DNA from: Lentisphaerae bacterium ADurb.Bin082
GTDB lineage: Bacteria > Verrucomicrobiota > Lentisphaeria > Oligosphaerales > Oligosphaeraceae
Direction of reading: 5' to 3'
DNA length: 64,000 nucleotides
NCBI GenBank assembly: GCA_002070945.1
Contig: MWEG01000023.1
Location: 62,001 to 126,000 of the forward strand
A model generated the notes under the pieces. That model did not search any database. It saw only the letters and a program-made list of their open reading frames with translations, and had not been told where the DNA came from. The stretch's first letter is position 1. Every line of letters starts with the position of its first letter. This document shows, piece by piece, positions 34,942 through 56,200 of the stretch. Made by a program: the position numbers and the translations under genes.

Positions 34942-35991
34942 ATGCGTCTGCAAAAAAATACTTTTATCGGCCTTGGCCTAATGGTTTTGGCTGTGGCGGC
35001 AATTTGCGTGGCATGGCGCCTAACCGCCGTACGAGACCCGAATACACCTCCAGAGACGCATCAAGGTGCTACGGCGCCTTCCACCCTTCAAGACAATAAC
35101 CTGCCCCAAGGAGGCAGCCGACCCGATCTGGCGACCCCCTTGTCCGCCACTCCTCCAGCTGACAAAACTCCGCCGCCTATTGCTGCCACAACGCCTGCGC
35201 CCAACAAGGAACATGCCACCGCAAGCGCTTTGCAGGAGCTTTTAGATGACGACGCCAAGCACACTCAGGCGCGCGTCATGGCTATGACCATGGCCGTCAC
35301 CGGTTCCGACTATGAGCAGCTTGAGGCTGTAAATGCGCTCCGCTGGCTGGGCGGCCAGGACGCCCAAAAAACCTTAGTTAAAGTCATGGCCTCAGCCGGC
35401 GAGGAAGCCGCCACCGAAGCGCGTCATGTACTCATGCATCTCCTGACCGAAGACTTGATCACAGACAGCCCTGCCCCCTTTGATCCCTCCCTCTGGAAGG
35501 AGGCCATCGAGGCTGCTGGCGATGAATCAGAGCAGGAGGCCTTCATGGTCTTGCTCGGCGCTCATCCGCCCAGACATGCCGTGCCAGTCTTGCTTGACCT
35601 GCTCGAATCTGACGACGATAATTTAAAGCAATTGGCACAGGAACACCTGGAAGCCAATACCAGCGGAGAAGAAATCACTACCCGCGAACAAGGCGAAGAA
35701 TGGCTGACAGAACACCTGGAAGAACAAGAAAAAATACAACTTGAAGAAGAACAAGAGCTGGCAGCCGCTGAGGAAGGAGCCGTTGACCTGCCGCGCTTCG
35801 CAGAATTGAAAAAACTCGAGGAAGAAGAAGCTCAAAAGACCGCCGCAGCCGAAGAAGAAGAAAAAGAAGACCAAAAAGCCACCGAGGAAAAAGAAGAAGA
35901 AGAAGAAGAAGAAGAGGAAGAGGAAGAGGAAGAGGAAGAGGAAGAGGAAGCCCAAAAGGCCGAGGAAGAAAAGGCCACTGAGGAGAATTGA
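34942..35991 (+). CDS. Membrane-anchored HEAT-like protein with long Glu-rich tail
   Basis: The 349-residue protein has an N-terminal hydrophobic anchor (TFIGLGLMVLAVAAICVAWRL, residues 7-27) and a Pro/Thr-rich linker. Residues 85-235 form alpha-helical repeats resembling HEAT repeats (EAVNALRWLGGQDAQKTLVKVM; AVPVLLDLLESDDDNLKQLAQEHL). The C-terminal 100 residues are mostly Glu with some Lys and Ala, encoded by GAA/GAG repeats at 35830-35985. This should be a highly charged flexible or coiled segment outside the membrane, able to bind metals or basic partners. The parvulin gene starts 5 bases after the stop, so the pair is likely one operon. Its function is not known. Confidence 0.78.
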   Translation: MRLQKNTFIGLGLMVLAVAAICVAWRLTAVRDPNTPPETHQGATAPSTLQDNNLPQGGSRPDLATPLSATPPADKTPPPIAATTPAPNKEHATASALQELLDDDAKHTQARVMAMTMAVTGSDYEQLEAVNALRWLGGQDAQKTLVKVMASAGEEAATEARHVLMHLLTEDLITDSPAPFDPSLWKEAIEAAGDESEQEAFMVLLGAHPPRHAVPVLLDLLESDDDNLKQLAQEHLEANTSGEEITTREQGEEWLTEHLEEQEKIQLEEEQELAAAEEGAVDLPRFAELKKLEEEEAQKTAAAEEEEKEDQKATEEKEEEEEEEEEEEEEEEEEEEAQKAEEEKATEEN

Positions 35992-37987: not shown

Positions 37988-40900
37988 ATGCGCCAATTGT
38001 TTCCTTGCAAAAAAATACAAGCAGGTATCGCTGCTTTGTTTTTTGTTTTTTTCACTGCAGCCAGCCTGCCTGCCCAAAATGGCGAAGGAATATGGACAGG
38101 ATGGTTCATCGGTGTTGCACAAGTGAATAATGTCAAACTAAGGGCAATAGAAACCAAGCGCCCACTGCTGGCTGTGGTCGGGTCGGGTCCTTGCGCACAT
38201 TGCAACTCTTTATATCACCAGGTACTACTTACCGACACATTTAGAGCGTTTGCGGAGCAACACCAAATCGTCCTTTTTTCATGCCACAACTCCGCCTCCC
38301 TGCCCATTATCTTCAAGCGTCTTTACGGTGCCCAATGCAACATAACGTCTGTTTTTCCACATGTCTATATATTCGAGATCCTGGAAGGGGCGGACACGAC
38401 AACGCCAAATGCCAGCGCCTTTGATGACCCAGCTTATGTCCACTTGCTGGACGCTGGCGCATCCAAGCCTAACCGATACAGCGGCTTTAACTACACACCA
38501 GGCGAAAGAATAAACAATATACAAATTGAGGGGGAGGAAGACAAATGGACGCCCGAAACGTTTATCCAGATCTTCAAGTCCTTTTTCCCGAACGCTAACG
38601 GAGTAGAACTCGTGCCGGGCCCCACCCACACCGGCTACGAAAATGCCATTGACTTCGGGAGAATACCCAATACAGCCAACCCGCCGCCCAGCGCCGAAGA
38701 GTGGATAAAGAACTCAGGTCCAAATCGCCTCACCCCGACAGCGACGCAGAACTGGTTCAAATTCCAAGGCGACTTGGGCAAACGCTATGTGTTTTCCGCC
38801 ACGGGCATCGGGAACAGCAACCCCGGGGCGGAGGTCACCTTCGAGCTGTTCGGCAGCGAGCTGAAAGTTAACGAGTGGGTGCCGCTCAAAAATGCGCACC
38901 AAGCTATCACGTCGCCAGGCTTCGACGCCCTGGAACGCGGCATCCAAGTCGATATGCCGGCTGGCACGGCAACCAACCAGACCTACTTCGTCAGGATCAG
39001 CACCACCAAAAGCATCAATGCAACCTACACCCTAAGAATACACGAGGCACCACGTGCGCCTGCGGCCGGCTCGGTCACCAATCCGCATTGGAACGACGCC
39101 AAGCCTGGGCAGTGGACCATGAACCGCGGCGCCGCCGAAGCCGCAGCCAAAGCCAACGACAAGCCTATCCTCTACTTGTTCGGCGGCTTGCTGTGGAACT
39201 CGGAAACCGTCTGCATGGTTCACAAAGTTTTGGAAACGGAAAACTTCGCGAAGGTGATCGGCAATCAAGCCAACGTCGACAACAAAGCCTACTTGGTCGT
39301 CCTGGACAACCGCGAGCGCGACGGCACAGGGCCGTCCCTCCCCAGAGCCGATCTGGACGACAACATCGAGGTGCAGGATGCCTTGGCCTTGCCAGGCGCC
39401 GGGGGAAAAATCGACTATCCGACGCTGGTCTATCGCGTCCGAAAAGCAAATGACCTGGTCTCTGTCGGACGGATTTCCAAAGACTACAACGCCGCCACCG
39501 TCGTCGCCAAGCTGAACGACCTGAAAGCCATGGCGGCGGACGGCTTTGTCGAGGACAACAACTATGCCGACCTGACCACCCAAGTGCTGGAAGACGGCGT
39601 CCAGGAACACTCCCGCATTGGCGGCAGCCTGATCACAGCTGACTGGTGGCGATTCACCGTCCCCGATGATGATAACACGTTCGCGACAATCACCGCGACC
39701 GGCGCCCCAGACGGCGCCATAATCAACCTGGCCGTCTATGCCGCGGACAATACGGAGACGCCCCTCAAGACAGCCACCGGCACAGCGGGCAAATCAGTCA
39801 GCCTCGACTTTGTGCCAGCCGAGAACCCAGGGGGCACTAGGAACCCGACGGCTCCAGAATATCTCCTGCAAGTCACTTCGACCGGCGCCAACGCCAGCTT
39901 CCCATACACTCTGAAGCTTGAGGAAAAAACCAAGTCCTACGTGCTGGCCATGGCCGACAAGGAAATTAAGGTTTCCAAACAAAATGTCATGGATGGCCGC
40001 CCGGTCGACCTCCGCCTGAACATTGATACTTTTACCGGCAATAATGATGATATCACGTTCAACTGCCGCCTGCTCTCCCAAGACGGCACGGTCTTGAGAT
40101 TGCTGCCAATCACTATCCCTCATGGCGACAAGGCAACCCCATACACCTTCAACATCACTTTGCCTAAGAACATCGAGTACCCCAATGGCGCAATCACAGA
40201 ATTAACCGCCGAACTCATCGAATCGGATGAAGATGGCAACTGCCAGATCGACCCGAAACAGTACAGGACGACCATCAACGTATACGGCTATGCCACGTTC
40301 GATTATCCTCAAGAGGCTACGATTGATCTCTACAAAAATGTAGCGATCACCCCGGGAACGCTCTGCTTCCCGATTATCGGCGGTGCAGCGGATGAGAACT
40401 CGTTAGCCTATAATCCAACCGGTGTCCCCCTAGGCCTGAAAGTAGAGTACAAAACCAACGACGAAAATAATCCGTACGTTGAAATCACCGGTACACCAGA
40501 GAATGAGGCCAAACACGAATACAAACTTCGGTTGATCCTGATACAATCATCGATGCAATACACCGACCTGACTTTTAACATTGAAGATTTGCCCCAGGTC
40601 AAAAATACCTTTGCCGGCTACCTCGTCAAAAGTGCCCCCGTGAACCAGCAACCTGGCAGTACCAGGAACGACGTCATCGCCGCTGCCCAGGACATTCTCG
40701 GTGATATCAAGATAGACAACGAGTTGGACAAAATCAATAAAAAAATCCTGGTTCGCGTCGCCACCCAGGACACCATAGCCCCCAGCTTATTTAAGTTCAC
40801 TGCCTGGTCAAGCTACTCCCCTGGCTCCCCAGGCAAGCAGGGCTCGGTTACATTAACAGGTAAAGCCATTTATGATGATTCCACCCTGGAGTTGCAGGTC

Positions 40901-42619
40901 TGCCTCGACGACGGAACCTGCACCGGGACCTACACGTTGCCCCTGGGCAATTCCTTGGCCATCCATGCCAAGGCCGTTACCGAAGAACCCGAGCAGTACG
41001 CAGGCTACTACACGGTCGCCTTGCGGGAAGCGGATACCACCACTCGCTCCCTCCGAGGCTGGCTGCAAGTCTGGGTGGACGACGACGGCCTCGCCACCTA
41101 CTCGGGCGAACTGATTGACGGCACCGCATTTGGCCCCAAGACGACGTATATCACACCCGGCGAACTCCTCTTTGGCCACCAGAGCGACGTGCCTAATGGC
41201 GAGTTGACCTTCTTCCTGCCGCTTGGAGAGTGGACGGAACAAAACCCGTACCCCGGCCGCCTGGCTGGCCGACTCTCCATCGTCTCGTTAGCGGAACGCC
41301 AACAACAACCAATCGTTTTCCCCTGGATTTCCGTCTGCGACGACGATTATTATTCGGTCTGGGAGAAATCTGCTAACGACTCTATCCTTCTTGCCCCTTG
41401 CGGAACCGTCTTTGAGTCGACGCTCCCGGTTGCCGAGCAAGTCAATCCACCCAACCCGCCAAACTTCTACATTAAGGTTGAGCCTGCTCCGCCAGAGACA
41501 TCATTCCCGCCGGGAACCGCCCTGCCCAACTATGTCAAGCTGAAGGAAAACCGCGATGCATCCACGATGGAAGTCGTCGATGAAGGTGGCATCATTTCCG
41601 CCGAACTTGATAATTTGGAGTACGACGCCGGCCAAGGAACGTTCATCGGCGCCATCAAGGTCCTGAAAACAGCCGACGGCAGCGCCAACGGGAAACTCAC
41701 ACGAACCCCATGCACCATCCGCGGCATCCTGACGCCGAACACGAGCTGCTGCACTGTTGATACTCTCGAAGTCGGCTACGGCTACTTCATCGACGATGGC
41801 ACGACCTATCTGGTCACCATCCTCAATCCGTCCTACGATGAACAACGTCCGAAAAAAACAGCTGCACCGACCATTAGCGCATTTACCCCAGGCGGTACGC
41901 GCGCTGCTGCGCCGGACCAGGCTTGTTACATCAGTGATTCGGACGACAACACGGTTCAGCTCGGCGTTCCCCGCAATGCGCAAATCTTCCGCCGACAAGT
42001 CGGCACCCAAGAGATATTTTTGCATACCGCTGCTGCTGGCGCCAATGAACTCACCATTGATTCGATTCCAGCTTCGCGGCAGGAATTCACGGCTCAAGAG
42101 GCCGGAAAGGCAGAAAGCGACAAGGCCATCCTCCGCCTCTACCGGCAAAACGAGTCCCTGGTCACTTTCAAGAAGCCGGGAGACGACCCGGAGGAGAACC
42201 CCTTAGCGGAAGTCGTGCAGTTGCACTTAGGCTGGAATCTCATCGGCATACCGCAAAATTTCCGTCACAACAACGCAGGGGTTGCCGCAGCCAGCTTCGA
42301 CGCCCCTGCCAATGTCGACTTGTTCACCACATACGACCCGGATAAAACCGCCTATATACTTGCAAAAATATTAACCGCTGGCAATGCCTACTGGATATTC
42401 GTCCACAACGACACCGAGAGCTTCCCCCTTCCTGGCGTACTTTTGCTTGAAGAGGATTACAACAAGAAGTCCCCGGGCGACAACGCCTGGCAATTCATCG
42501 TCGCCCCTGGTGAGGCTCAAGGCACGCGCTGGTTCTGGGAGGACGGGAAGTTCAGCACCGACCCGCCGGAACAGCCGACTTGGCGAGGCGTGTGGTATTA
42601 TTACCAAAAACAACCGTAG
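37988..42619 (+). CDS. Giant exported thioredoxin-like / PPC-domain protein, paralogue A (1543 aa)
   Basis: A signal peptide (IAALFFVFFTAASLPAQ) is followed by a thioredoxin-like domain with CAHC at residues 69-72. The conserved GASKPNRYSGFNY lies near 165. A PPC-like beta-sandwich follows (NWFKFQGDLGKRYVFSATG, residues 250-355). A second thioredoxin-like domain near 385-520 reads KPILYLFGGLLWNSETVC: the CxxC of the paralogue (WCPHC) is lost here. A second PPC-like domain (DWWRFTVPDDD, about 555-660), a series of Ig- or cadherin-like beta domains (NIEDLPQVKNTFAGYL near 870) and the C-terminal LGWNLIGIPQNF module complete it. The start follows GGGAGGG. No catalytic hydrolase site is seen. Probably cell-surface or periplasmic. 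The inverted repeats on both sides are unusual. Confidence 0.82.
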   Translation: MRQLFPCKKIQAGIAALFFVFFTAASLPAQNGEGIWTGWFIGVAQVNNVKLRAIETKRPLLAVVGSGPCAHCNSLYHQVLLTDTFRAFAEQHQIVLFSCHNSASLPIIFKRLYGAQCNITSVFPHVYIFEILEGADTTTPNASAFDDPAYVHLLDAGASKPNRYSGFNYTPGERINNIQIEGEEDKWTPETFIQIFKSFFPNANGVELVPGPTHTGYENAIDFGRIPNTANPPPSAEEWIKNSGPNRLTPTATQNWFKFQGDLGKRYVFSATGIGNSNPGAEVTFELFGSELKVNEWVPLKNAHQAITSPGFDALERGIQVDMPAGTATNQTYFVRISTTKSINATYTLRIHEAPRAPAAGSVTNPHWNDAKPGQWTMNRGAAEAAAKANDKPILYLFGGLLWNSETVCMVHKVLETENFAKVIGNQANVDNKAYLVVLDNRERDGTGPSLPRADLDDNIEVQDALALPGAGGKIDYPTLVYRVRKANDLVSVGRISKDYNAATVVAKLNDLKAMAADGFVEDNNYADLTTQVLEDGVQEHSRIGGSLITADWWRFTVPDDDNTFATITATGAPDGAIINLAVYAADNTETPLKTATGTAGKSVSLDFVPAENPGGTRNPTAPEYLLQVTSTGANASFPYTLKLEEKTKSYVLAMADKEIKVSKQNVMDGRPVDLRLNIDTFTGNNDDITFNCRLLSQDGTVLRLLPITIPHGDKATPYTFNITLPKNIEYPNGAITELTAELIESDEDGNCQIDPKQYRTTINVYGYATFDYPQEATIDLYKNVAITPGTLCFPIIGGAADENSLAYNPTGVPLGLKVEYKTNDENNPYVEITGTPENEAKHEYKLRLILIQSSMQYTDLTFNIEDLPQVKNTFAGYLVKSAPVNQQPGSTRNDVIAAAQDILGDIKIDNELDKINKKILVRVATQDTIAPSLFKFTAWSSYSPGSPGKQGSVTLTGKAIYDDSTLELQVCLDDGTCTGTYTLPLGNSLAIHAKAVTEEPEQYAGYYTVALREADTTTRSLRGWLQVWVDDDGLATYSGELIDGTAFGPKTTYITPGELLFGHQSDVPNGELTFFLPLGEWTEQNPYPGRLAGRLSIVSLAERQQQPIVFPWISVCDDDYYSVWEKSANDSILLAPCGTVFESTLPVAEQVNPPNPPNFYIKVEPAPPETSFPPGTALPNYVKLKENRDASTMEVVDEGGIISAELDNLEYDAGQGTFIGAIKVLKTADGSANGKLTRTPCTIRGILTPNTSCCTVDTLEVGYGYFIDDGTTYLVTILNPSYDEQRPKKTAAPTISAFTPGGTRAAAPDQACYISDSDDNTVQLGVPRNAQIFRRQVGTQEIFLHTAAAGANELTIDSIPASRQEFTAQEAGKAESDKAILRLYRQNESLVTFKKPGDDPEENPLAEVVQLHLGWNLIGIPQNFRHNNAGVAAASFDAPANVDLFTTYDPDKTAYILAKILTAGNAYWIFVHNDTESFPLPGVLLLEEDYNKKSPGDNAWQFIVAPGEAQGTRWFWEDGKFSTDPPEQPTWRGVWYYYQKQP

Positions 42620-42925
42620 CTGTAAAAGTGCGAAAACCTGTGGTTGAAAGAGAGACTTGACCTAGTACTATCCGCCAAAATCTTGTTTTTTGCGAAAGAT
42701 TTTCTCCAAGTCAGTACTTATGTGTCGCCCTTTCAGGGCTCCCAATATTATTATACGCCTCACCCAGGGCGTAGCTCGCCCTTGGCGGGCTCGCTTGCCC
42801 TGGGCTGGTATGTCTCGCCCTTTCAGGGCATTTGCAGCTCTGCAGCTGCGGACGTTGTACTACTATCGGCCAACTTCTTGTTTTTTGGGAAAGATTTTTC
42901 AGGGAAACTTATCGCCAAGCCGCTA
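42620..42925. repeat. Palindromic repeat mosaic, part 2
   Basis: No gene is seen. Two inverted copies of the GATAGTAGTAC element (42664-42704 and 42857-42900) surround TATGTGTCGCCCTTTCAGGG, CACCCAGGGCGTAGC and a GCCCTGGGC palindrome (42728-42830). Part of it matches 34098-34290. Confidence 0.8.
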
Positions 42926-43065
42926 CTCACTCCACCCCAGGTTCCGCTTCGCTTCACCTGGGGTTACTCATGGTGCCGCCTCTACGAGGCTCAGGCTTGG
43001 GGGGACTCCACCCCAGGTTCCGCTTCGCTTCACCTGGGGTTACTCATGGTGCCGCCTCTACGAGG
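42926..43065 (-). repeat. Inner inverted repeat, right arm
   Basis: The reverse complement matches 37478-37619 closely (only a few differences by eye). It has two units of ACTCCACCCCAGGTTCC, GCTTCGCTTCACCTGGGG, TTACTCATGGTGCCGCC and CCTCTACGAGG. It starts 306 bases after the first giant gene ends. Confidence 0.88.
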
Positions 43066-43343
43066 CTAGGGGCGGCCTTCCGGCCGCCAGTACGACGCAC
43101 ATCAGCCGCCGTCCACAACGTCCACCCAGTCCACCACGTCCACAACAGCCGCAAAGCGGCAAAAGCCCGGAGGGTGACACATAAAAGCCCAGGGTAAGCC
43201 GGGCCGCCAGGCCCGGCGCAGCCCTGGGTGAGGTGGCATATCATTTTGAGTCCTGAAAGGGCAACACATAAACGCCGCTGTGGTCAAAGGACACATAAAG
43301 GCATACAAGTATTCATCACGAAACTTAGCACATTAACTTTTTC
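43066..43343. repeat. Palindromic repeat mosaic, part 3
   Basis: No gene is seen. Bases 43111-43147 carry five GTCCAC-type words (GTCCACAACGTCCACCCAG and so on). Bases 43188-43230 form a palindromic block, AGCCCAGGGTAAGCC ... GCAGCCCTGGG. Bases 43232-43270 hold GGCATATCATTTTGAGTCC and CTGAAAGGGCAACACATAAA. The last block recurs at 43760-43802. Confidence 0.75.
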
Positions 43344-43540
43344 GGGGAAAATTTCTGGAAAGCAAATACTCAAGTCATTGGTATACAATAAGTAACAATA
43401 ACTATAAACAAAATTCCGACAACATGTTTTCAGCGCTAACAGTAGTGCCCCTACGGGGCACCAGTTTGGGGGGCATACCTCCCCCAGGCTAAAGCCTGGG
43501 GTTAAGCATGGTTAAGCGCCTACGGCGCAAAGGAATATGA
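43344..43540 (-). repeat. Outer inverted repeat, right arm
   Basis: This is the reverse complement of the arm at 34381-34575, with about 20 mismatches over roughly 180 bases counted by eye. Hairpins CCCCAGGCTAAAGCCTGGGG and GTGCCCCTACGGGGCAC are shared. A shorter third copy of the central hairpins occurs at 52918-52983. Confidence 0.88.
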
Positions 43541-43885
43541 CGTTAAGCATGGTGCCTCTGCACCGGCTGGAAGCCTGTGGAAGCCTGTGCAAGACACGCA
43601 TCTTCGCGCCTGAACTTTAATAAGTCAATAGTCTTTACTGTATAGCCTGTGCAAGACACGTGTCTTCACGCCAACGTCCACTAACATCCGCAGCTACAGA
43701 GCTGCCAAAGCCCCAACGGGGCGCGACATACCCGCCCAGGGCGAGCGACGCCCTGGGTGAGATGGCATATCATTTTGAGCCCTGAAAGGGCGACACATAA
43801 ACGTTGACTTGCAGAAAATCTTCCCCTCAAAAACAAGAAGTTAATCGATAGCAGTACCATAACCATAACTTAAGGAACCACTACG
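43541..43885. repeat. Palindromic repeat mosaic, part 4
   Basis: No gene is seen. Two GTGCAAGACACG words (43585 and 43647), a CGCCCAGGGCGAGCGACGCC palindrome with CCTGGGTGAGATGGCATATC (43733-43775), CCCTGAAAGGGCGACACATA (43780-43800) and a direct copy of the GATAGCAGTAC element (43814-43857). The DUF1573 gene starts directly after it. Confidence 0.75.
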
Positions 43886-45112
43886 ATGCCTCCTGCCATG
43901 TCGCGCTTGCTGACCAGTCTTATCGCTTTGCCTCTGCTGGTTGCCGTTGTCTTAGCCCAGGACAAACCGCTGGCGCCGCCTGCGGGCGCCCAAGACCTTG
44001 CCGAGCAACAGGAGCAAGCCGCCCAAGAGCCGACGGAAGAGCCGGATTCCACCAAAAAACCGCCTTTGCAGCTGCTGGACAACGCTGCCGAAGTCAACCT
44101 CGGTACGCTGATGGATCGGGAACGCCGCCAGTTCACGGTAAAATTGCGCCATGCTGGCGACAAGCCGCTGGCGATTAGCTTAGTCCGCAGCACTTGTCCT
44201 TGCCTTGAAATCGTCAATGCCCCTCAGCCATTCACCCTGGCGCCTGGTGCTGAGATGACGATAGAGGCCATTCTCAAGGCCAATACCCTGCCGGTGAAGC
44301 CGTTCGCTCGCCTGATACTGGTCAATGTCGCGGATTACGATCCCTATTTCATCAAAGTCGTCGGCGACATTGCCAAAAACGTCAGTTTTGCTCCTGCTCC
44401 GGTGATTCAGCTGGGCAGCTTCGTTGGCCTGAAGACATCCTGGACCCGCACCATCACCTTGAAGTTCGACTTTCCCGAGGGCAAGCAGATTGTGCTGGAG
44501 CAGCCTGCGGAAAACAAGCTTCTCACCTTGGCCGTATCGTCTCCCGAACCCAACACCTTTGTAGTCGCGGCCACGCCTAAGCTGCCTCTGCCGGCCGGCA
44601 AGCTGGATGAAGTCATCACCCTGCCTACGCGGGGCGTTGACGGCTATGGCTCGGTTCAGATCGCGTTCCGCGGCACGGTCACCGGCTGGGACTTGGCCGT
44701 CGTGGAACGCATCATCACCATTGACACGGCCCAAATCGAACCAGGCAAAGGCGCTGCCGCTGAACTGACCATCGTCCCACGCAGCGAAGCGCCGCCAGCC
44801 CGCAGGCTCGCACGGCGCTTTAAAGGCGGCCATAGCCATGCCCAAAACGACGACCGAGTGGCGGAAAAACACGTCGAAAACGACGAACAAGCGGCCGGAG
44901 AGCTGAAAAGAAAAGAAACGTGGCAAGACATCGCCAAGGCCATCACGGTAAACATCCCTGAAGGCAGCACCATGGACATCGTCCCGGAAGACACCTGCAT
45001 CAAACTGCGCCTGAGCTTTCCAGAACAGTTCTTCGCACAACGAAACAGGTATTCGGCCAGCGTCATGCACAACAAGAAAATCATCGGACGCCTGAATATC
45101 GTCGCCAAATGA
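43886..45112 (+). CDS. Exported DUF1573-domain protein (408 aa)
   Basis: Residues 1-24 look like a signal peptide (LLTSLIALPLLVAVVLA). After a Gln/Glu/Pro linker, residues 58-160 are a DUF1573 Ig-like domain: NLGTLMDRERRQFTVKLRHAGDKPLAISLVRSTCPCLEIV, where CPC is the family's conserved Cys region, then FTLAPGAEMTIEAIL. A second beta domain follows (residues 165-300) and a charged His/Asp/Glu stretch (residues 310-345). The last part has NIPEGSTMDIVPEDTC. DUF1573 proteins are exported and often sit near thioredoxin-like or CcdA genes; here the CcdA-like gene starts 209 bases downstream. AAGGA lies upstream of the start. The exact job is unknown. Confidence 0.82.
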   Translation: MPPAMSRLLTSLIALPLLVAVVLAQDKPLAPPAGAQDLAEQQEQAAQEPTEEPDSTKKPPLQLLDNAAEVNLGTLMDRERRQFTVKLRHAGDKPLAISLVRSTCPCLEIVNAPQPFTLAPGAEMTIEAILKANTLPVKPFARLILVNVADYDPYFIKVVGDIAKNVSFAPAPVIQLGSFVGLKTSWTRTITLKFDFPEGKQIVLEQPAENKLLTLAVSSPEPNTFVVAATPKLPLPAGKLDEVITLPTRGVDGYGSVQIAFRGTVTGWDLAVVERIITIDTAQIEPGKGAAAELTIVPRSEAPPARRLARRFKGGHSHAQNDDRVAEKHVENDEQAAGELKRKETWQDIAKAITVNIPEGSTMDIVPEDTCIKLRLSFPEQFFAQRNRYSASVMHNKKIIGRLNIVAK

Positions 45113-45134
45113 AGCCCGCCCAGGCGGCGAGGAG

Positions 45135-45282
45135 CTGCTGTTTTATCCGCAGATGACGCTGATGACGCAGATTTTTTTTGGGGGGGCTGAATGCTGAATG
45201 CTGAATGCTGAATGCTGAAGCGCATTTCATAATTCATCATTCATCATTCATCATTCATAATTCGTTAGGAGTCCGGGGCGAC
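45135..45282. repeat. Compound: ATCCGCAG element joined to a heptamer composite
   Basis: Bases 45135-45180 are an ATCCGCAGATGACGC element (third copy), preceded by GGCGAGGAGCTG. It runs straight into the third TGAATGC composite: about four TGAATGC heptamers at 45187-45219, GCGCATTTC, then six ATTCATA/ATTCATC heptamers to 45265, closing in CGTTAGGAG. The join shows that the two families can sit end to end. Confidence 0.88.
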
Positions 45283-45320
45283 ATTCCGTCCGTGGTTCTT
45301 TTTCTGTAAATTCTCTAATT

Positions 45321-46910
45321 ATGCTACGTTCATTGACAAAACTTCTCCTTTGCCTTGTTTTGGTCTTTTTTTCTCTTTCCGGCTTTTCTGGCCTGGCGGC
45401 TGAGCGCAGCTGGGTGGCTATATTTGGCACGGCTGATTGCGACGACTGCGCGGCGGTCAAACGCCAATGGCGCGAGGAACTCACCGCGCCGGAAGACCCG
45501 GTGCTCCTTTTCCTGGACATCGCGCATCCGCCCAACTATCGGCGCCTGGAACAGATCGAAGCCGCCTTGAAAATTCCGGCCAAGGGCGCGTCGTTTCCCA
45601 TCTTCTTGGTCGGCAACCGGCTGATTGACAACATCGACGCTTTCTATGAGCTGGGAGACGAACTGTTCGAGCTGGCCGCTGCCCAGCCGTCAGACCCAGC
45701 GGTTCAGGCAGTCACCAAGCCGCTGGCCACGGCTGCCGCGACGGCCAGCACCCCGGTCGTTGACCTGCTCTGCCCAGAGGAAGCTTCCCCGCCAACAGCG
45801 ACAACTGCGACGACGACCATAGCCACCCCGCGCCTCCTCTATTTCTTCCAGAAAAACTGCCAGAAATGCTCGCGCCAGGAAAAAGAGCTGGAGCTTCTCT
45901 TAGCCGATTTGCCGGGATTGACGATAGACCGTTTTGACGTTGCCACGCTCGATGGCCTGGCCATTCTGCGCCGCGCCATGAATCATTTCCTGCTTCCCGC
46001 TGACAGCACCCGCAATTTAGCGCCGATGGTCTGCTGGCAGGATGGCTTCATCACCGGTCGACTGGCCGATGCCGCTGAACTCAAAAAAGCCCTGGCGCAC
46101 TACCGCGAACCCTACGAGACCTTCTGGCAAGCGCCTGTCACCGACACGGAACGACAGGCCGAAAAGACCCGCCAGCAACGACGCCTAGGCAAGGGCGCCA
46201 TCGGACTCATCATCAGCGCTGGCCTCCTCGACGGCTTCAACCCCTGCGCCTTTGCCACCTCCATCTTCCTGCTCAGCTACCTGCTGTACCTGAAACGCCG
46301 TCCACGCGACATCGCCCTGGTCGGGGCATTCTTCTGCCTGGGCGTCTTCCTGACCTACGTCCTGTTCGGCATTGGCCTGTCCTTCCTCATCGATGCCCTC
46401 AACCAGGCCGCCTGGATGAAAACCATCATCTATGGCGGGCTGGGAATCGTCGGCGTCATCCTCGCCATCGGCCACCTGCGCGATGCGCTGCGCTACCGGC
46501 GCACCGGAAAAGCAGGCGACATGGCTTTAGGACTGGACAAGCAAACCCACCAGCGCATCCACACTTGGATCAAGCGCCTGACCGACCATAAATCCTGGCT
46601 GATGATACCGGCTGCCCTGCTGCTCGGCGCGATCGTCTCCAGCATGGAGCTGGCCTGCACCGGTCAAATCTACCTGCCTACCCTCGCCGCCATCAATGCT
46701 GACGGCATCGACCTCCGCGCCGTGCTGCTGTTGCTGCTCTACAATTTCTTCTTCATTCTGCCGCTGGCCGTCATCACAACCTTGGCGGTGCTGGGCGTAG
46801 GCGCACAGCCAGTCGCGGCCTGGGCGCGCAAGAACGTCGTTGCCACTAAAGTCGCCATGGCGGTCTTATTTGCCTGCCTGGCTGTGCTGATGTTCTCGCT
46901 GATCGGATAG
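45321..46910 (+). CDS. CcdA/DsbD-like membrane reductant transporter with two thioredoxin-like domains
   Basis: The 529-residue protein carries a signal segment (LLLCLVLVFFSLSGFSGLAA). A first redox domain has FGTADCDDCAAV (CxxC at 40-43) and a second has FFQKNCQKCSRQEKELELLL (CxxC near 181). About six membrane helices follow from residue 290. The CcdA landmark LLDGFNPCAFATSIFLLSYLL and the second Cys in SSMELACTGQIYLPTL are both present, so the electron-transfer cysteines are intact. CcdA/DsbD proteins pass electrons from cytoplasmic thioredoxin across the membrane. The two N-terminal domains are the probable exported acceptors. Fusion order (two domains before the transporter) is unusual. 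It is downstream of DUF1573 and between the two giant genes. Confidence 0.88.
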   Translation: MLRSLTKLLLCLVLVFFSLSGFSGLAAERSWVAIFGTADCDDCAAVKRQWREELTAPEDPVLLFLDIAHPPNYRRLEQIEAALKIPAKGASFPIFLVGNRLIDNIDAFYELGDELFELAAAQPSDPAVQAVTKPLATAAATASTPVVDLLCPEEASPPTATTATTTIATPRLLYFFQKNCQKCSRQEKELELLLADLPGLTIDRFDVATLDGLAILRRAMNHFLLPADSTRNLAPMVCWQDGFITGRLADAAELKKALAHYREPYETFWQAPVTDTERQAEKTRQQRRLGKGAIGLIISAGLLDGFNPCAFATSIFLLSYLLYLKRRPRDIALVGAFFCLGVFLTYVLFGIGLSFLIDALNQAAWMKTIIYGGLGIVGVILAIGHLRDALRYRRTGKAGDMALGLDKQTHQRIHTWIKRLTDHKSWLMIPAALLLGAIVSSMELACTGQIYLPTLAAINADGIDLRAVLLLLLYNFFFILPLAVITTLAVLGVGAQPVAAWARKNVVATKVAMAVLFACLAVLMFSLIG

Positions 46911-47364
46911 AACTCCCACGGGGCTTGGCGACGGGATAATTCAGCGCTTCTGCTGCTGCTCCGCTGCTGTGGACATGGTGAGCGGGGTGAGCGGGGTGGA
47001 CGGGGTGAGCGGGGTGGGCGGGGTGAACGTGGTGGACAGAGGCTGCGGCATCGTACGTAGTTCAGCTTCAGCTTGCCGTAATTTTAGCGTTTCTGCCGCT
47101 GCGCTGCTGGCTTCCCCGTACAACTCACCCTAAAAAAATCTGCGTCATCTGCGTCATCTGCGGATAAAACAACAGCCTTCGCTTCTTGCCCTCATTTCGC
47201 CGCTTTTCCATGCAACCAGCGCAAAGTTCGTGACTCTGTATGCAACACAATGATAGTGAGCTTGTTACAGATATTTTTCCTTTGCTCTTCCGTCTGTTTG
47301 CGCTATATTTTACGTATTGTTTGTCTGTAGTTTTTGAATTCACGTGTTGCACGGCAGGCGGTCT
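46911..47364. repeat. Intergenic stretch with GGGGTGAGC tandem and inverted ATCCGCAG element
   Basis: Bases 46969-47041 hold about eight 9-base units such as GGGGTGAGC and GGGGTGGAC. A GTACGTAGTTCAGCTTCAGC word lies at 47053-47080. Bases 47105-47178 are the fourth ATCCGCAG element in the inverse direction. Bases 47180-47364 show nothing clear. Confidence 0.8.
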
Positions 47365-48081
47365 ATGGAAGCTGGCCTCGGCTCAGAGTATGGATGCAGT
47401 TATTATTTGCTTCGCAGCGCGGCGTTGGCAACGGTCCTTCATTTAGGCACGTTGTCATTTTGCCAGCGTTTTATGCCGCCTTCGGACGCTGCTCGGTCTC
47501 GGTCTTTGACGTCATCGGCCCGGCAGGCTTGGCAATCCGTGCTGGAGGTCATCCAGCGCCAGCTGTCTGATGCTGACGCCGAAGTTATGTGCCTCGCTGC
47601 CGGCTATCGCCAGATGACTTTGCTGCTTGGCGAGTGGGAGATGTTTCTTATTGACGGCGGCGCGCTGCCGTGGAGCTGCCAGTCGGCCGGCTACATGCGG
47701 CTGGCCTCATCGACGTATGCGCCTGTCTGCGACGACGGCGAATTGCCTGAGCAGGTTTGTTGGCGCTACGTGCAGGTTTTGCGCAGTCGCCTGGCCTTTT
47801 GGCTGGATAACGAAGATCGGCTTGAAGTCGCCAATGCCTTGCTGGTGCTGACTAAGCAGGGGCTGGCCGCGCTGGCCACGGAATTGGCCGGCTATCGTCA
47901 ACGTCACGTCGGCGCCGCCTTGACCGTGGTGGAGGACTGGTTGGAGACGAGTCGTGGCGAATGGCTGCGGGTCGCCTGCGTCGTGCCTCCGTGTCCAGCC
48001 TGCGGCAAGCCTATGCGGCGTTATTGGGAGCAATGGCAGTGCCAGGACTTCCCTGATTGCATCGGAATCGCCAAGGGGTGA
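47365..48081 (+). CDS. Four-helix-bundle protein with topoisomerase-type zinc ribbon (238 aa)
   Basis: The N-terminal 150 residues follow the pattern of the four-helix-bundle family related to 23S rRNA intervening-sequence proteins. YYLLRSAALATVLHLGTLSFCQRF, SSARQAWQSVLEVIQRQLSDADAEV, LLLGEWEMFLIDGGALPW and ANALLVLTKQGLAALATELA align by eye with its successive helices. The C-terminal CPACGKPMRRYWEQWQCQDFPDC is a four-Cys zinc ribbon of the topoisomerase type. The combination suggests nucleic-acid binding in the cytoplasm. I prefer the ATG at 47365 (MEAGLGSEYG) because the first helix then stays whole. The gene is convergent with the second giant gene. Function is not established. Confidence 0.68.
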   Translation: MEAGLGSEYGCSYYLLRSAALATVLHLGTLSFCQRFMPPSDAARSRSLTSSARQAWQSVLEVIQRQLSDADAEVMCLAAGYRQMTLLLGEWEMFLIDGGALPWSCQSAGYMRLASSTYAPVCDDGELPEQVCWRYVQVLRSRLAFWLDNEDRLEVANALLVLTKQGLAALATELAGYRQRHVGAALTVVEDWLETSRGEWLRVACVVPPCPACGKPMRRYWEQWQCQDFPDCIGIAKG

Positions 48082-48136: not shown

Positions 48137-51100
48137 TTATTTATAAAACCACACGCCTTGCCAAGCCGGCTGCTCCGGTGGTTCGATGGTAAACCGCCCA
48201 TTCACCCAGAACCAGTGTGCGCCTTGAGCCTCATCCCCGGGGTCGGCAATGAATTGCCAGGCATCGTCGACCAGAGACTCCTTGGCGTAGTCCTCTTCAA
48301 GCAAAAGCACGCCTGGGAGGGTGAAGTTCTCCGTGTCGTTGCCAACGTACATCCAGTAGGCTTTGCCGGCGGTTAGTGTTTCCGCAGTTATATAGGCGGC
48401 TTTATCCTGGTCGTATGTGAACAAGGCGACGCCAGCAGAGACGTTGAGGGCGGCTATGGCAATCTCTCTGCTGACATCATGCCCAGTGCGGAAATTTTGC
48501 GGTATGCCGATGAGATTCCAGCCTCGGCGCAACCGCGCCAAGCCCTCGTCGGGGGCGCCTTCCGGAAGAAACTTGAAAGTGACCAGGGAGTCATTTTGCC
48601 GATAGAGGCGGAGGGTGGCCTTGTCGCTCTCGGCCTTGCCGTCCTCTATGGCCGTGAATTCATGCCTCAAGGCTGGAAGCGAATCAAGGATGAGTACATC
48701 GGCGCCTGCCGCGGAATGCAAAAATATCTCTCCAGTGGCGACTTGCCGGCAGAGGATTTGCGCATTGGGGGGCACCGAGAGCTGAACCGTGTTGTTGTCC
48801 GAATCGCTGATGTAGCAAGTCACGTCCGACGCGATGCGTGTGCCTGCATGGTCGCCATGCGTCCATGCGTCAATGGCCGGCGGGGCTGTTTTTCCCGGCG
48901 CCTGGTTGAAGATGGTGACGAGACAGGTCGCGCCATCGAGGGTGAAATAGCCGTGACCATCCGCGAGATTCGGAGTCTGGCCGCAACAATTCTTGGTGAT
49001 CGGAGTCAGGATGCCGCGGATGGGACATTCGGTTCGTGCGAGTTCACCGTTGGCGCTGCCATCGGCTGTCTTCAGGACATTGATGCGCCCGGTGAACGTT
49101 CCTTGGTATGCGTCATACGTCAAAGCACTCAGTTCGGCGGATAGGATGCCGTTGGTGGCGACGAGCAGCGCCAATGCATCGCGGTTTTCTTCCAGCTTGA
49201 CACAGTTGGGCAGGACGCTTCCCGGCGCAAATGCCGTCTCTGGCGGAGTGGGCTGAACGCTGATATAGAAGTATGGCTGTTCGAAGTCTGGATCGACTTG
49301 CTCGGTAACCGAGCGTGTCGAGTCAAAAGTCGTCCCGCAGGGGTCAATCAGAACCAGGTCGTCAGCTGCTTTTTCCCAGGCCGAATTGCCGCCACTGGCT
49401 AACACCCAGGCGTCATTGACGTTGTCGCCAGCGGTTGCTTCGCGTTCCGCCTTCGCGACGATGGCGAGCTGGCCGGCCAAGCGGCCGATATAGCTGTTTT
49501 GTTCCGCTGACCACCCAAGCGGCAGGAAGAAGGCCATTTCGCCATCAGGCATGCCGCTCTTGTTGCTGGCGGTGATTTTTCCGGGGGTGACATACGTGTC
49601 CTTGGGGCCGAATGTGGCGCCGTCAATCAGTTCGCCCTGGTAGGTGACGCATCCGGCATCATCCACCCAGACTTGCAGCCAGCCCTGGCAGGAATATGTG
49701 CCGTTATCCAGCCAATGCCGCAAAGCAACCGTGTAGTAGCCTGCGTACTGCCCCGGAACTTTGGTGACGGCCGAGGCGCGGATGGCAAAGGAATTGCCCA
49801 AGGGGGACGTATAGGCGCCAGTGCAGGTGCCGTCCTGGCTGATCTGCAAGCTCAAGGCGGAACCATCCTGGGTAGTGCTTGCTAATCCTATCAAGTTAAG
49901 CGCGCCAAGGTCAGGGGAGTAGCTTGACCAGGCAGCGAACTCAAAAAAGCTGGGGGCTTCGGCGTCCTGGGTGGCGACGCGAACCAAGATTATACCGGTC
50001 AGGCCATCCAAGTCGTTGTCTATCTTGATGTCGCCGCGCATGGCCTGGGCAGCGGTGACGTCGTTATCTTCGACGAGATAGCCGGCAAAGGCATTGCTGA
50101 CCTGGGGCAAATCCTCAATATTAAAAGTCAGGTCGATGTATTGCTGCGATTGCAACAGGACCAACAGGAGTTTGTATTGAGCATTGGCTTCGCCCTCTGG
50201 CGTGCCAATGATTTCAACGCACGGACTATCTGGGTCGCTAGTAAAATCCCGCAGTTCTAGGCCTAGCGGGATGCCGTCTGGATTATAGTCTATCGGTTCC
50301 CCTTCCGGGTCGCCAATGACCGGGAAGGAGAGCGACCCCGGGGCGAGCGCGATATTTCTGTAAAGGGTGAATGTGGCCTCGGCAGGATAATTGAACGCGG
50401 CATAGCCAAGCACGTTGACGGTCGTGGTGGATTGCTCCGGGTCGATCTGGCAGCTGTTGTCACCCGATTCGGTGATTTCGGCGACTAATTCTGTGCTTTC
50501 GCCGTCGGGGTACGTACCGTCTGGCAATGCCATGCTGAAGGTATATGGGGTTGCCTTGTCGTCGTGAGCAATAGTCATTTCCCGCCATGGTGCGCCAGTG
50601 TCGCCTGCGCGCCGCAGGCGGCATTTGAACGTGAGCGGCTTCGCATGGGCGTTGACAGTCTCAATGTTCAGGCGGAGCTTGACTTCAGCGGCTTTGCTGG
50701 AAACGCGACTTTCCTGGTCTGCCATGGCCAGCACGTAGGACTTGGCAGTGACTTCAAGCTCCAGTTCGTATAGGAAGCTGGCGGTGGTGTCGCTCGCGGT
50801 GACTTGCAGGAGATATTCCGTGTCCTCCGCGTTTCCGGCTGGCGCAAAGACGAGGCGGACGGGGTCGGTCGCAGGGCTGGTGGCTGTCTTGAGGAGCGTC
50901 ACGCCGTCTGCGGCATAGACAGCCAGGCTGATTGCGGCGCCAGCCGGGGCAGCGACCCCGGTCGCAGTGATGGTCGCAGCCTTGCCTGCCGGGACGGTAA
51001 ATCGCCACCAGTCAGCCGTGATCAGGCGGCCGCCAATGCGGGAGTTTTGCAGGTCGCCGTCCTTCAGCATTTGGGTGGTCAGGTCGGCACAGTTGTTGTC

Positions 51101-52744
51101 TTCGACAAAGCCGGCTGCCGCCATGAGCGCCAAGTCGTCCAGCTTAGCGATGACCGAGGCGATGTCATAGTCTCCGGCAATCCGTCCGACCGAGGTTAGT
51201 CCATTGAGCGTTGCGCGGGTAGGCGCTGCTGCCGGGACGCAGTAGACCAGCGTCGGATAGCCGATTTTCTTCCAGGCTTTGTCTGGCCCCCAGGTGTCGG
51301 CGCCAGGCAAGGCCAAGGCATCCTGTGCCGCGATGTTGTCAACCAGCTTGGCCTCGGCGGCTACAACGCTGATGTTATTCGTTTTCAAGTAGCCATTGGC
51401 TGTGTTGTCGCGGAGCGGGGATGGGCCGTTGCCGTAGCGGTCGCGGTTGTCGAGGGCGACTAAATAGGCGTCTGCGGTCGCCGCCTTGAATTCAGGCGCT
51501 TGCAGTATCTTGTGCTCTAGGCAGACGCAGTGCGGGCACCACAGCAGGCCGCTGAACAAATAGATGACAGGCTTGCCAGCGGCTTTGGCCGCTTCCTCGG
51601 CGGCGGCGCGGTCCATAGTCCACTTTCCGGGCCTGGCGCCGTTCCAATGCGGGTTGGTAGGCGTGCCGGCAGCAGGGGCCCGCTGAGCCTCGTGCGCCTT
51701 CAAGGTGTATGTCATCTTACTGACGTCGCCAGCGGCATGGCTGAGCCTGACGAAGTAGGTCTTATTGGTTGCCGTGCCAATCGGCATGTCGATTTGGACA
51801 CCGCGGTCCAAGGCGTCAAAGCCTAGGGCGGTGATTGTCTTGTACGCATCCTCAAGCGGCGCAAGCAGGCCGTTGTTCCACTCGCTGCCGAACAGCTCAA
51901 ACGTAATTTCCACCTCGGGATTGTTGTTCGTGATGTCCTTGGCCGAAAACACATAGCGCTTGCCCAGGTCGCCGACGAATTTGAACCAGTTCTGCGCCGC
52001 TGCCGAGTCCAGGACCTTTGCACCTGAATACATGATCCATTCTTTGCTGTTGGGCTGCGGGTTGTCCATGTTGGGTATTCGTCCGAAGTCATGGGCGTTT
52101 TCAAAGCCGGTGTGGGTGGGAACGGGCGGTGGAGTAGTATTTGCCCAGAACTGATTCGGGAAAAAGGTCTGGAAGACGCTGATAAACGTTTCCGGCGTCC
52201 AGGCGAGTTCAGTCTCAATTTGGACATGGTTTATCTTTATATTAGACAAGTAGTTGAAGCCGCTGTATCGGTTGGGCTTGGATGCGCCAGCGTCCAGCAA
52301 GGTGACTTGCTTGTCATGAAGCGACGTGGAATCTGAAGTGGCCAAGTCTGCGCCGTCATTGACCTTGAAAATGTAAATAAATGGGTATGAGGGAGTCATG
52401 CCGCATTTCTTTGAATAAAGGTTGTGCAGTGCCCCATTAAGCTCTTTTGAATCGCGGCATTCAAAAACAACGATTTTGTTGGCATCGACGTAGTTCTGAA
52501 ATGCCGGCGTATGCAGAACAAGATTTTCAAATTTGTTGCAATGATCGCAATCCGCGCCGCCGGCTATGACCAGCAAGGGCCGATTGTAGCTGTATGCGAG
52601 CCTTTTGGCGTCCGCTACCTGCGCAATGCCGGTGAACCATCCTTCCCATGCTACTTGCGCAGGCAGACTGGACGCGAGCAAGCAAACAAAGGCCAAAACT
52701 GCGGCGCGCACAAGAAAATTTCGGGCATGAGCAGATAGAAGCAT
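48137..52744 (-). CDS. Giant exported thioredoxin-like / PPC-domain protein, paralogue B (1535 aa)
   Basis: This is a full-length paralogue of the gene at 37988, on the opposite strand, with the same domain order. A signal peptide (VLAFVCLLASSLPAQ), then a thioredoxin-like domain with CDHC at residues 66-69. GASKPNRYSGFNYL and a PPC-like domain (NWFKFVGDLGKRYVFSAKD) follow. The second thioredoxin-like domain has GLLWCPHCVCLEHK, with its CxxC kept, unlike paralogue A. A second PPC-like domain (DWWRFTVPAGK), Ig/cadherin-like domains (NIEDLPQVSNAFAGYL) and a C-terminal GWNLIGIPQNF module complete it. The start follows GGAG. This copy may be the catalytically competent one for its second domain. 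No protease or glycosidase site was seen. Confidence 0.83.
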   Translation of the reverse strand: MLLSAHARNFLVRAAVLAFVCLLASSLPAQVAWEGWFTGIAQVADAKRLAYSYNRPLLVIAGGADCDHCNKFENLVLHTPAFQNYVDANKIVVFECRDSKELNGALHNLYSKKCGMTPSYPFIYIFKVNDGADLATSDSTSLHDKQVTLLDAGASKPNRYSGFNYLSNIKINHVQIETELAWTPETFISVFQTFFPNQFWANTTPPPVPTHTGFENAHDFGRIPNMDNPQPNSKEWIMYSGAKVLDSAAAQNWFKFVGDLGKRYVFSAKDITNNNPEVEITFELFGSEWNNGLLAPLEDAYKTITALGFDALDRGVQIDMPIGTATNKTYFVRLSHAAGDVSKMTYTLKAHEAQRAPAAGTPTNPHWNGARPGKWTMDRAAAEEAAKAAGKPVIYLFSGLLWCPHCVCLEHKILQAPEFKAATADAYLVALDNRDRYGNGPSPLRDNTANGYLKTNNISVVAAEAKLVDNIAAQDALALPGADTWGPDKAWKKIGYPTLVYCVPAAAPTRATLNGLTSVGRIAGDYDIASVIAKLDDLALMAAAGFVEDNNCADLTTQMLKDGDLQNSRIGGRLITADWWRFTVPAGKAATITATGVAAPAGAAISLAVYAADGVTLLKTATSPATDPVRLVFAPAGNAEDTEYLLQVTASDTTASFLYELELEVTAKSYVLAMADQESRVSSKAAEVKLRLNIETVNAHAKPLTFKCRLRRAGDTGAPWREMTIAHDDKATPYTFSMALPDGTYPDGESTELVAEITESGDNSCQIDPEQSTTTVNVLGYAAFNYPAEATFTLYRNIALAPGSLSFPVIGDPEGEPIDYNPDGIPLGLELRDFTSDPDSPCVEIIGTPEGEANAQYKLLLVLLQSQQYIDLTFNIEDLPQVSNAFAGYLVEDNDVTAAQAMRGDIKIDNDLDGLTGIILVRVATQDAEAPSFFEFAAWSSYSPDLGALNLIGLASTTQDGSALSLQISQDGTCTGAYTSPLGNSFAIRASAVTKVPGQYAGYYTVALRHWLDNGTYSCQGWLQVWVDDAGCVTYQGELIDGATFGPKDTYVTPGKITASNKSGMPDGEMAFFLPLGWSAEQNSYIGRLAGQLAIVAKAEREATAGDNVNDAWVLASGGNSAWEKAADDLVLIDPCGTTFDSTRSVTEQVDPDFEQPYFYISVQPTPPETAFAPGSVLPNCVKLEENRDALALLVATNGILSAELSALTYDAYQGTFTGRINVLKTADGSANGELARTECPIRGILTPITKNCCGQTPNLADGHGYFTLDGATCLVTIFNQAPGKTAPPAIDAWTHGDHAGTRIASDVTCYISDSDNNTVQLSVPPNAQILCRQVATGEIFLHSAAGADVLILDSLPALRHEFTAIEDGKAESDKATLRLYRQNDSLVTFKFLPEGAPDEGLARLRRGWNLIGIPQNFRTGHDVSREIAIAALNVSAGVALFTYDQDKAAYITAETLTAGKAYWMYVGNDTENFTLPGVLLLEEDYAKESLVDDAWQFIADPGDEAQGAHWFWVNGRFTIEPPEQPAWQGVWFYK

Positions 52745-53292: not shown

Positions 53293-56200
53293 TCAACCTC
53301 GTTTTTGGAGGAATTCCTGGAATCTGGCGAATGATTCTCCTTGTTCGCGGACAGCGTCCAACAGGGGAATAAGAGCTTCCAGGATCAGAATCTGGCGTTC
53401 CCAGGCTTTGGCGTATTCTGGCGGCATGATTGCTTTGAGTTCAGTCGGGGCTTCCGTGTTGTCCTTCTTGGCGCTTTGCATTGCCTGCGCTAAAGACGCC
53501 AAGTCCACGCGCTGATTCTGCAAAGCCTCAGTCAACGGCGCCAGGTCAATCCGCTGGTTCTGCAGAGCCTCGGTCAACGGCGCCAGGTCAATCCGCTGGT
53601 TCTGCAAGGCTTCGGCTAACGGCGCCAGGTCAATCCGCTGGTTCTGCAAAGCAGCCACCAGCGGCGTCAAGTCGATTTTCACATTGCCCTCGTCCCGCGC
53701 CTTAGGTTGGCGCGTAGCCAGGACTTCGCCTAGGCGGTCTGCGGCCTGGGCAAAGCCGCTGTCCAACGAACTGCGCACCTGCCCCAGGCCAGCGCTGAAC
53801 GCCGACAATTGCGCTAGGAGCCGTCCGAAATCATTAGCGTCATCCAGGCCGGAGAGATTCTTCCGCCTCGTGAATTCGGCCTTGATGTCATCCCAGCGGA
53901 GTTTTTCTGCGGGCGTCAGGCACTGCATGATTTCCTTGGCCTTGAGCAGGTTGCTTTCCGCGCCGGTGGTCAGGGTCTGGGCCTCATTGCGGTAATGGTC
54001 AAGGATGACCTGGTCGACTTCCTGCTCGCTCATGATTGGGAATATCTTTTCCGCCATGCGGTTCATGTTGCGGTAGGAGCCTTGCAGTCGGAACGGCGGT
54101 TCGGTGCGGTACTCGTCTTGCTGCGCCGCTGAATAAATATACTGCTGGTTGACCTTGAGCACGATATCCCGCACCCGGAGCAAATGCCTGACCGTCTTGA
54201 CGACGTCATCAAGCTCGCCCGGGGCATAAAATTCCACGAAGGACACGCCCTCGATGCTGCCGCGCTCGGCGGCCAGTGCGAAGTTGGCCATGTCCGCCAG
54301 GTTGCCGCCCTGGTTGTTCCAGGCCGCCAGAACCGAATTGGACGTCATGGCGTTTTCCAGGAAACTAAGCGCAAAGACCTCGGCATGAGCCTGGCTGATG
54401 TCGCCAAGATTATAGGTGTCAGCGCGGTTCGCCAGCATATCTGGCACCTTGAACACGCCGCCGCTTTCCGTATAGGGATTGCCGGCCATGACGACCGCGA
54501 CCTTCTTGCCGCGCAAATCGTACGTCCTGGCCTGGCCATCCATAACGCCCTCGATCTTGCGCTGGGCGTCACACAGAGAAATGAACTTCTGCAAGAATTC
54601 CGGATTCAGGTGCTGGATATCGTCGAGGTAGATCATCACATTGTTGCCCATGGCAAAGGCGAGGTTCAATTTATGCAATTCTTCACGGGCAGTCGCATTC
54701 GGCGCTTCGGCCGGGTCCAGGGACAGGACGCGGTGGCCGATAGCCGGGCCATTGACTTTCATGAAGGCCAGGCCCAGGCGTTCGGCCACATATTCCATCA
54801 GGGTAGTCTTGCCATAGCCTGGCGGCGAAATAAGCAGCAGAAGCCCCATTTGGTCGCTGCGCCGACGCGGCCCGGCAGCGCCCATCTGCTTAGCGAAATT
54901 GGCTCCGATAAAACGCAGATAGACCTCGCTGAGCAAGCGGTTGCGGACAAAGCCTCCCATGGTGTGCGCCTTGAACTCTGACAAACGCAGGCGCAGGCGG
55001 CGCGCTTCCAGGAGTTTGCCACGAAGGCGCTGGTAGTCGCGGAAGCGGGGCGCCTGCCGGGAACGGAAGTCCTCCAGGCGCAGCAGGAAGGTGTCGAGCT
55101 GCAACGTCAGCTTTCCCTCCTGCAACAGCGGGTGCACCCCGCGCAAGCCGCTGACCGTAGAGCTGACTGCGGCTGACATGCCGTCAGCCAGCAGCATCTT
55201 CGGGCCGGCGCTGGCCAGGGTCGTCATCTCCCAGGCGAAATGACGGTCAGCAGCCTTGTCCCGGTGTTCCAGGAACGCCGTCACCCAGTCGTAGGCCAAG
55301 GCAATGCGCGCACCTGGCGACGACAGCGACGACAACGCCTGCTCAAAGCGCTTTTCCGCATTGCGCTCCCGCAGGACGCGGCGGAATTCTTCGGCCAGGG
55401 CGACTGCCTCCGCCGTCATGGTGAACCGCAGCTCCTCCTGGTCCTGGAGTTCATAAAAAAGATATTCGGCTGCCTGGTCAAGAGCCGCCGCCGGGAACGG
55501 CAGCCGAGCCAGCTCCGAAAACTCGGCCAGCAGCTTTTTCAGGTCTGCGACATAGACCGGATGGATTTCCTGCTGCTGGAACATAGCGGCTCTCTCGCCA
55601 AAGCTTCGCAGGTGTTCACGCCAGGCGTTTTTTCGGTCAGTGTCAGGATGGAAGCACCAGCACAGCACGGCCCAGGAGCGTCCTGCGCTGGCATAGCGCA
55701 GCAGCCCGCAGCGGTCGTGCAAAACGATCAGCTCGCGCAGAATCAGCGCGGCGTCATAGTCATGGACACCGCGTTCGTAGCCCTCGTCGTAGCGTTGCGC
55801 TGCTTCGACGCGCATCAGTTCAACCAGCTCTCCCAGTGTACCGGCGTCTGTCGTGCGCTGGCTTGGCGCTGCCAGCTGCCGCAAGCTGTCCAGGGTCAAG
55901 CCGCGTTCGCCATGCTGGGCGCGGCGGAAGATATCGTAGGCGAGGAATTCGGCGCGATAGACGTCTGGCGCTTCGCTCGGGAGCGTCCTGGTCCACATAT
56001 CTTGGCAGGCGGCCAGCTCCGCGTCGCGCACCGGCTCGCTGAAGTCCGTACCTGTCAAATGCAGGCAGAGTTCGCCTTCGCGCACGATTGTGGTCAATTC
56101 CAGGGGCTGCTTGTTGACATGGAATTGGTGTTCGCCCAAGGTCACGGCTGAACCGTCAGGCGTGAAGATATCTTGCCGGTCGCGTTGTTGCCGCAGCAGG

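Follow-up and report, generated by a model that had tools for sequence, protein, structure and literature searches.

A candidate extracytoplasmic thiol relay of a double-thioredoxin CcdA-like protein, a DUF1573 protein and giant exported proteins in a Lentisphaerae bacterium

The window analyzed here, a 64,000-nucleotide stretch of the genome of Lentisphaerae bacterium ADurb.Bin082, contains a group of genes for exported and membrane proteins that we label A to G. Arranged on the forward strand are A (29866-32037), an exported 723-residue protein with CHB_HEX_C_1 / Fn3_assoc annotation; B (32745-33860), an exported single-copy protein with six conserved cysteines (a CTSC motif and four more) that has 371 residues if translation starts at 32745, within an open reading frame spanning 32694-33860; C (34942-35991), a membrane-anchored HEAT-like protein with a Glu-rich tail and a weak HEAT_2 match; D (35997-37190), an exported or anchored parvulin-type prolyl isomerase; E1 (37988-42619), a giant exported protein of 1543 residues; F (43886-45112), an exported DUF1573 protein; and G (45321-46910), a 529-residue double-thioredoxin CcdA fusion. 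A second giant of 1535 residues, E2, is encoded on the reverse strand (48137-52744). Our re-check reproduced the open reading frames, coordinates and motifs that an earlier sequence-only reading had given for the CcdA fusion, the DUF1573 protein, the giants, the CTSC protein and the parvulin. NCBIfam models gave no over-cut-off match for eight proteins scanned (six from the window and two relatives of G). The 1.27-kb gap between E1 and F (42620-43885) is full of direct and inverted repeats with copies of 63-68 nt, and the equivalent gap in a sister genome (L069) is about 140 bp; short tandem repeats (CTGAATG..., ATTCATC...) also lie between F and G, at 45178-45265. Between G and E2, at 47344-48081, lies a gene kept in sister genomes for a 245-residue protein that has a C-terminal zinc-ribbon-like CPxC...C...C pattern and no Pfam match.

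G begins with a signal-like N-terminus, followed by thioredoxin (Trx)-like domain 1 (45411-45680; CDDC at residues 40-43, cis-proline P93), Trx domain 2 (45813-46115; CQKC at residues 180-183, cis-proline P235) and a CcdA-like membrane part (46143-46904; C309 in FNPCAFA and C446 in ACTGQ). This layout draws on the open reading frame and its motifs, an alignment of homologues and an AF2 model, supplemented by VIA structural comparison for domain 2 and comparison with DsbD profiles for the membrane part. All six cysteines (C40, C43, C180, C183, C309 and C446) are invariant across 23 homologues and thus are not chance features, and both cis-prolines are invariant in the same set. The sequence-only reading correctly held that both membrane cysteines are kept and that two CxxC domains are fused at the N-terminus; the single C-terminal domain that it took as usual is instead the arrangement of DsbD, and N-terminal Trx-CcdA fusions are common. 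The AF2 model (mean pLDDT 82.6) places two Trx-type domains before a helical membrane part. Domain 2 of the model aligns with thioredoxin 3ul3_A over 84 residues (VIA Z 11.2, rmsd 4.0), and is predicted to adopt a Trx fold bearing both the CxxC and the cis-proline. Domain 1 has the strand/helix order b-a-b-a-b-b-a in the model, and none of the structural matches listed covers it. No solved CcdA structure is among those matches, which is not evidence against the fold, and the G profile found only marginal thioredoxin matches among PDB sequences.

The membrane part of G is related to that of DsbD, though distantly. Aligned by hhalign to DsbD proteins of this and related genomes, it gives a match that spans 231 columns and puts both membrane cysteines in register, C309 and C446 falling on the TPC and GAC cysteines that form the pair of TM1 and TM4; the E-value is 0.0018 versus 0.57 for a reversed control, at an hhalign probability of just 6%. 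PF02683 (DsbD_TM) has no over-cut-off match at G while matching elsewhere in the genome, and a relative of G (L032) stays under the cut-off both for DsbD_2 (4e-4) and for DsbD_TM (0.016). Since PF02683 is silent at G and the DsbD alignment nonetheless brings the cysteines into register, G is best called a remote CcdA/DsbD relative that by Pfam's rule is not a member of the family. Like DsbD, an envelope reductant hub built as alpha - membrane beta - gamma, G would pass electrons from its membrane cysteine pair to Trx-type domains of the same polypeptide; unlike DsbD, it has neither an alpha domain nor a C-terminal gamma domain and follows the order Trx-Trx-membrane, which places it outside DsbD proper. 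PF02683 matches one other protein in this genome, and most genomes of the family likewise have one match. The protein at L135:2022-3638 is by sequence a canonical DsbD, with an N-terminal domain carrying CSDGVC, TPCVLP and GACVAP in its membrane part, and a C-terminal CKSC. Because a canonical DsbD is encoded elsewhere in the genome, G appears to be an additional, second carrier beside it.

F lies directly upstream of G, as the sequence-only reading had noted, and is an exported protein of about 400 residues. It matches PF07610 at 30 bits against a cut-off of 26.1, which places it in the DUF1573 family, and its CPC motif (residues 104-106) has both cysteines, C104 and C106, invariant in 22 homologues. 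The literature we searched describes no function for DUF1573; the family turns up there in tables of selenoproteomes and in a single paper on iron response, and nowhere else. Those tables include a form in which the CxC motif is the selenoprotein variant UGC (PMC9312934, PMC13188914). That the CxC is invariant here, and that a UGC form is tabulated, suggests that the motif is redox active. F has this motif in common with other DUF1573 proteins, the UGC form included, and differs from them in being a 400-residue exported protein held in a fixed gene order with a giant and a CcdA gene. Outside the family, DUF1573 stands beside Trx-CcdA in 7 of 21 loci, where the per-genome counts of DUF1573 matches would predict about 0.07 (P about 1e-12); these pairs occur in genomes G029, G032, G036, G043, G049 (two) and G058 (convergent), and further cases within the phylum are found in G162, G166 and G173. 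The linkage of DUF1573 to Trx-CcdA is independent of the giants, and it gives DUF1573 a concrete redox role open to testing.

E1 and E2 are 60% identical and built from the same parts: a signal-like start, two Trx-like domains, a long remainder of beta type and, C-terminally, a 'GWNLIGIP' domain. In E2 both CxxC motifs are intact: CDHC in the first domain (52268-52660) and CPHC in the second (51311-51658), the latter matching Thioredoxin_7. In E1 the first domain (38078-38476) retains CAHC and the second (39077-39400) has lost its CxxC, a loss that, with E2 intact, fits a lineage-specific duplicate that is drifting. The expectation that exported CxxC proteins flank the CcdA gene holds in that a giant lies on each side, and fails for this one domain. 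The giants contain 1-4 copies of the first type of Trx domain plus a second type, reaching a maximum of four plus one (in L086). CxxC is kept in 53 of the 58 Trx-like domains found in the giants, and although mean pairwise identity among the 58 is just 24%, the top three columns by conservation are the cis-proline (58/58) and both cysteines of CxxC (53/57 each), the pattern expected of working active sites. An NCBIfam model gave a weak DsbH-like match for the Trx domain of a giant. Outside the Trx domains, the giants conserve C502, C765, C1117, C1136, C1253 and C1254, and among these cysteines of the beta-rich part the C1253-C1254 pair stands out. Cytochrome c maturation, which we considered as a purpose of the system, appears less likely on the motifs of the two window giants, whose Trx domains carry CxxC rather than CxxCH. 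The C-terminal domain ('GWNLIGIP...W.W..G.F...GVW.Y', about 120 residues) ends A as well as both giants (29866-32037, 37988-42619 and 48137-52744) and occurs in 20 copies in the genome, often closing very long open reading frames; it is possibly a sorting or anchoring domain.

The genes around this locus recur together across genomes. Among 12 genera, F is found in all, E and G in 11 each, D in 8, and A, B and C in 6 each, with H, an IMP cyclohydrolase-like gene, in 4; each remaining neighbor family occurs in just one or two, and the loci were chosen for holding G, E or F, so that the counts for these three arise partly by construction. Independent of that choice are the facts that E, F and G share one stretch and that D, B and C recur where other neighbors do not. 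The linkage of E, F and G exceeds chance. Their tallies are backed by HMM and translated searches, the simple open-reading-frame caller having sometimes picked an antisense frame (for example in L071 and L103). The order B-C-D-E-F-G recurs, whole or in part, across the family, whose members are uncultured bacteria of Lentisphaerae type. F directly adjoins G in 15 family genomes by HMM; elsewhere a giant (genomes G009 and G018) or an A-type gene (G014) lies between them. The parvulin that the earlier reading placed with the system (PF00639, E 8e-10 for the product starting at the ATG at 35997, over cut-off and thus of the PPIC rotamase type) belongs there, recurring with the cluster in those 8 genera. 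A search for co-occurrence of the giants, DUF1573 and this form of CcdA, as that reading had advised, returned a recurrent, family-wide cluster that includes the parvulin and did not refute the idea. One genome of another family, f8 (G041), holds B, D and a giant on one contig, and G045 holds D with a giant. Within the family, this linkage partly reflects shared descent.

The double-Trx CcdA form is not confined to genomes with giants. Of the 29 family genomes 25 have it, as do several other families of the order, among them six (f2, f4, f5, f7, f9 and f10) in which G occurs without giants, which suggests that this CcdA form predates the giants or is more widely spread. Within the family, genomes G006, G011, G012 and G027 have a CcdA gene separate from the giant/DUF1573 cluster, and the last of these, a well-covered genome, has G and no giant. 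The earlier grouping of these proteins as an envelope redox system is accordingly supported as regards linkage and the conserved Trx active sites of the giants, and not as regards a giant-specific CcdA. Taken together, gene linkage and residue conservation make a functional grouping of the cluster well supported.

We propose, at about even odds, that this cluster is a dedicated extracytoplasmic thiol relay, in which G and the giants probably convey reducing power to the outside of the cell membrane. In this scheme the membrane cysteines C309/C446 of G would be reduced by cytoplasmic thioredoxin and would hand electrons to its two tethered Trx domains; these would in turn reduce the CxC motif of F and the CxxC motifs in the giants' thioredoxin arrays, and the giants would reduce target disulfides on the outer side of the cell. 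The parvulin D would aid the folding of the giants or of B. What the data show is the linkage of the genes, the conservation of the redox residues, a predicted Trx fold for domain 2 of G and a housekeeping DsbD encoded separately; we infer each step of electron transfer, its reductive direction, its purpose, and the giants' location and target. A quite improbable alternative is that there is no dedicated relay: G would serve the envelope at large as a reductant, the giants would be surface proteins whose Trx domains are vestigial, and descent would keep the genes together. The presence of G elsewhere without giants, the loss of CxxC from one Trx domain of a window giant and from a few others, and the generic, 20-copy nature of the giants' C-terminal domain would all accord with this view, yet no columns of the giant Trx domains are better conserved than the CxxC and cis-proline, the genes neighboring the cluster are not conserved, and the genome already has a canonical DsbD.

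B is central to a second alternative: that the giants, DUF1573 and the parvulin form a disulfide isomerase or assembly station kept reduced by G, as DsbD does for DsbC, with B as main client and the giants' own cysteines as further clients. Of the 29 family genomes 17 carry B, as a single-copy gene, and so does the f8 genome, and in most B-bearing genomes, the latter included, it is tied to C-D-E; C is found with B in L141-L144. These ties and B's six conserved cysteines, the conserved cysteines of the giants outside their Trx domains, and the regular membership of a parvulin in the cluster would all suit such a station. Against it, 12 of the 29 family genomes lack B, and coverage is good for at least one of these (G007, 95% complete); neither DsbB nor VKOR, which would make the disulfides, turned up in 20 genomes; and the pairing of B's cysteines is an assumption. 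We regard this alternative as rather unlikely. Structural searches with B gave little: an AF2 model from 8 sequences was poor (pLDDT 54), Foldseek with that model returned nothing at E <= 0.001, its top matches being secretins and porins with very low TM-scores, and the B profile matched no PDB sequence.

The absence of DsbB (PF02600) and VKOR (PF07884) matches extends to all 20 genomes of the order that were searched, this genome (G000) and 19 relatives, while the controls did give matches; a divergent oxidase could escape both Pfam models. Exported proteins with conserved cysteines nevertheless exist. Both observations lend themselves to a third alternative, in which the Trx-CcdA unit or the giants would receive the electrons of exported thiols and aid disulfide formation in a lineage without recognized DsbB or VKOR. 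Characterized CcdA/DsbD proteins, however, work reductively, and the membrane cysteines of G are in register with those of DsbD; we consider reverse flow very improbable. For the reductive relay, the lack of a DsbB/VKOR match bears on its purpose, since it places the abundance of envelope disulfides in question, and we count it against the relay together with the presence of G without giants in several families and the separate CcdA gene in four genomes. A more ambitious version, which we find somewhat unlikely, is a self-contained extracytoplasmic thiol machine in which G feeds DUF1573 and the giants, and these build or operate a surface structure containing B in this same lineage. Were this machine real, DUF1573 would be an envelope redox carrier. 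Exported giants with up to five thioredoxin domains would form an unusual end of a CcdA pathway. The giants suggest that some bacteria invest heavily in extracellular thiol chemistry, although no standard disulfide-forming enzyme was detected there.

The literature searched contained no account of a Lentisphaerae thiol system. The proposed relay scheme has a close experimental precedent in the pneumococcal CcdA1/CcdA2 - Etrx1/Etrx2 - MsrAB2 surface pathway, in which electrons leave through CcdA for surface proteins of the Trx fold, and these in turn serve another enzyme at the surface (PMC3914529). In that pathway the Trx proteins are small lipoproteins in their own right and electrons end on a methionine sulfoxide reductase (PMC3914529), whereas the cluster has two Trx domains fused to CcdA and giants as the proposed acceptors, and Pfam detected no Msr domain in proteins A to G, setting the cluster apart from pathways with a terminal Msr. 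N-terminal single-Trx CcdA fusions in Verrucomicrobiota, Bacteroidetes, Nanohaloarchaea and Patescibacteria belong to G's membrane family and carry its Trx domain 2, and some adjoin DUF1573; they differ in having one Trx domain, and those inspected have no giant cluster beside them. Our verdict is that the relay would be a variant of the CcdA/DsbD envelope-reducing pathway.

Trx-HEAT-Trx-CcdA proteins of about 1500 residues, found in other families of the order and in the phylum, resemble G in their N-terminal Trx domain and C-terminal Trx-CcdA unit, but place about 1000 residues of HEAT repeats between them; in place of giants and DUF1573, their neighbors are a DUF4159 protein and a protein of about 950 residues. 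In other families of the order, such a fusion of about 1500 residues forms a recurrent, conserved trio (L088:2-8336, L090:387-8624 and L092:1790-9732) with a protein of about 930-990 residues and one of about 220-300 residues that carries a CCCC stretch and, in L088, matches DUF4159. This trio may be a separate redox system. Further along the window, an 1811-residue DUF3686/DUF7902/AAA ATPase ('ATPase involved in DNA repair') adjoins E2 at 53293-58728, followed by a Kdo/WaaP-like kinase at 58830-59669 and an FGE-sulfatase-domain protein at 61892-63919.
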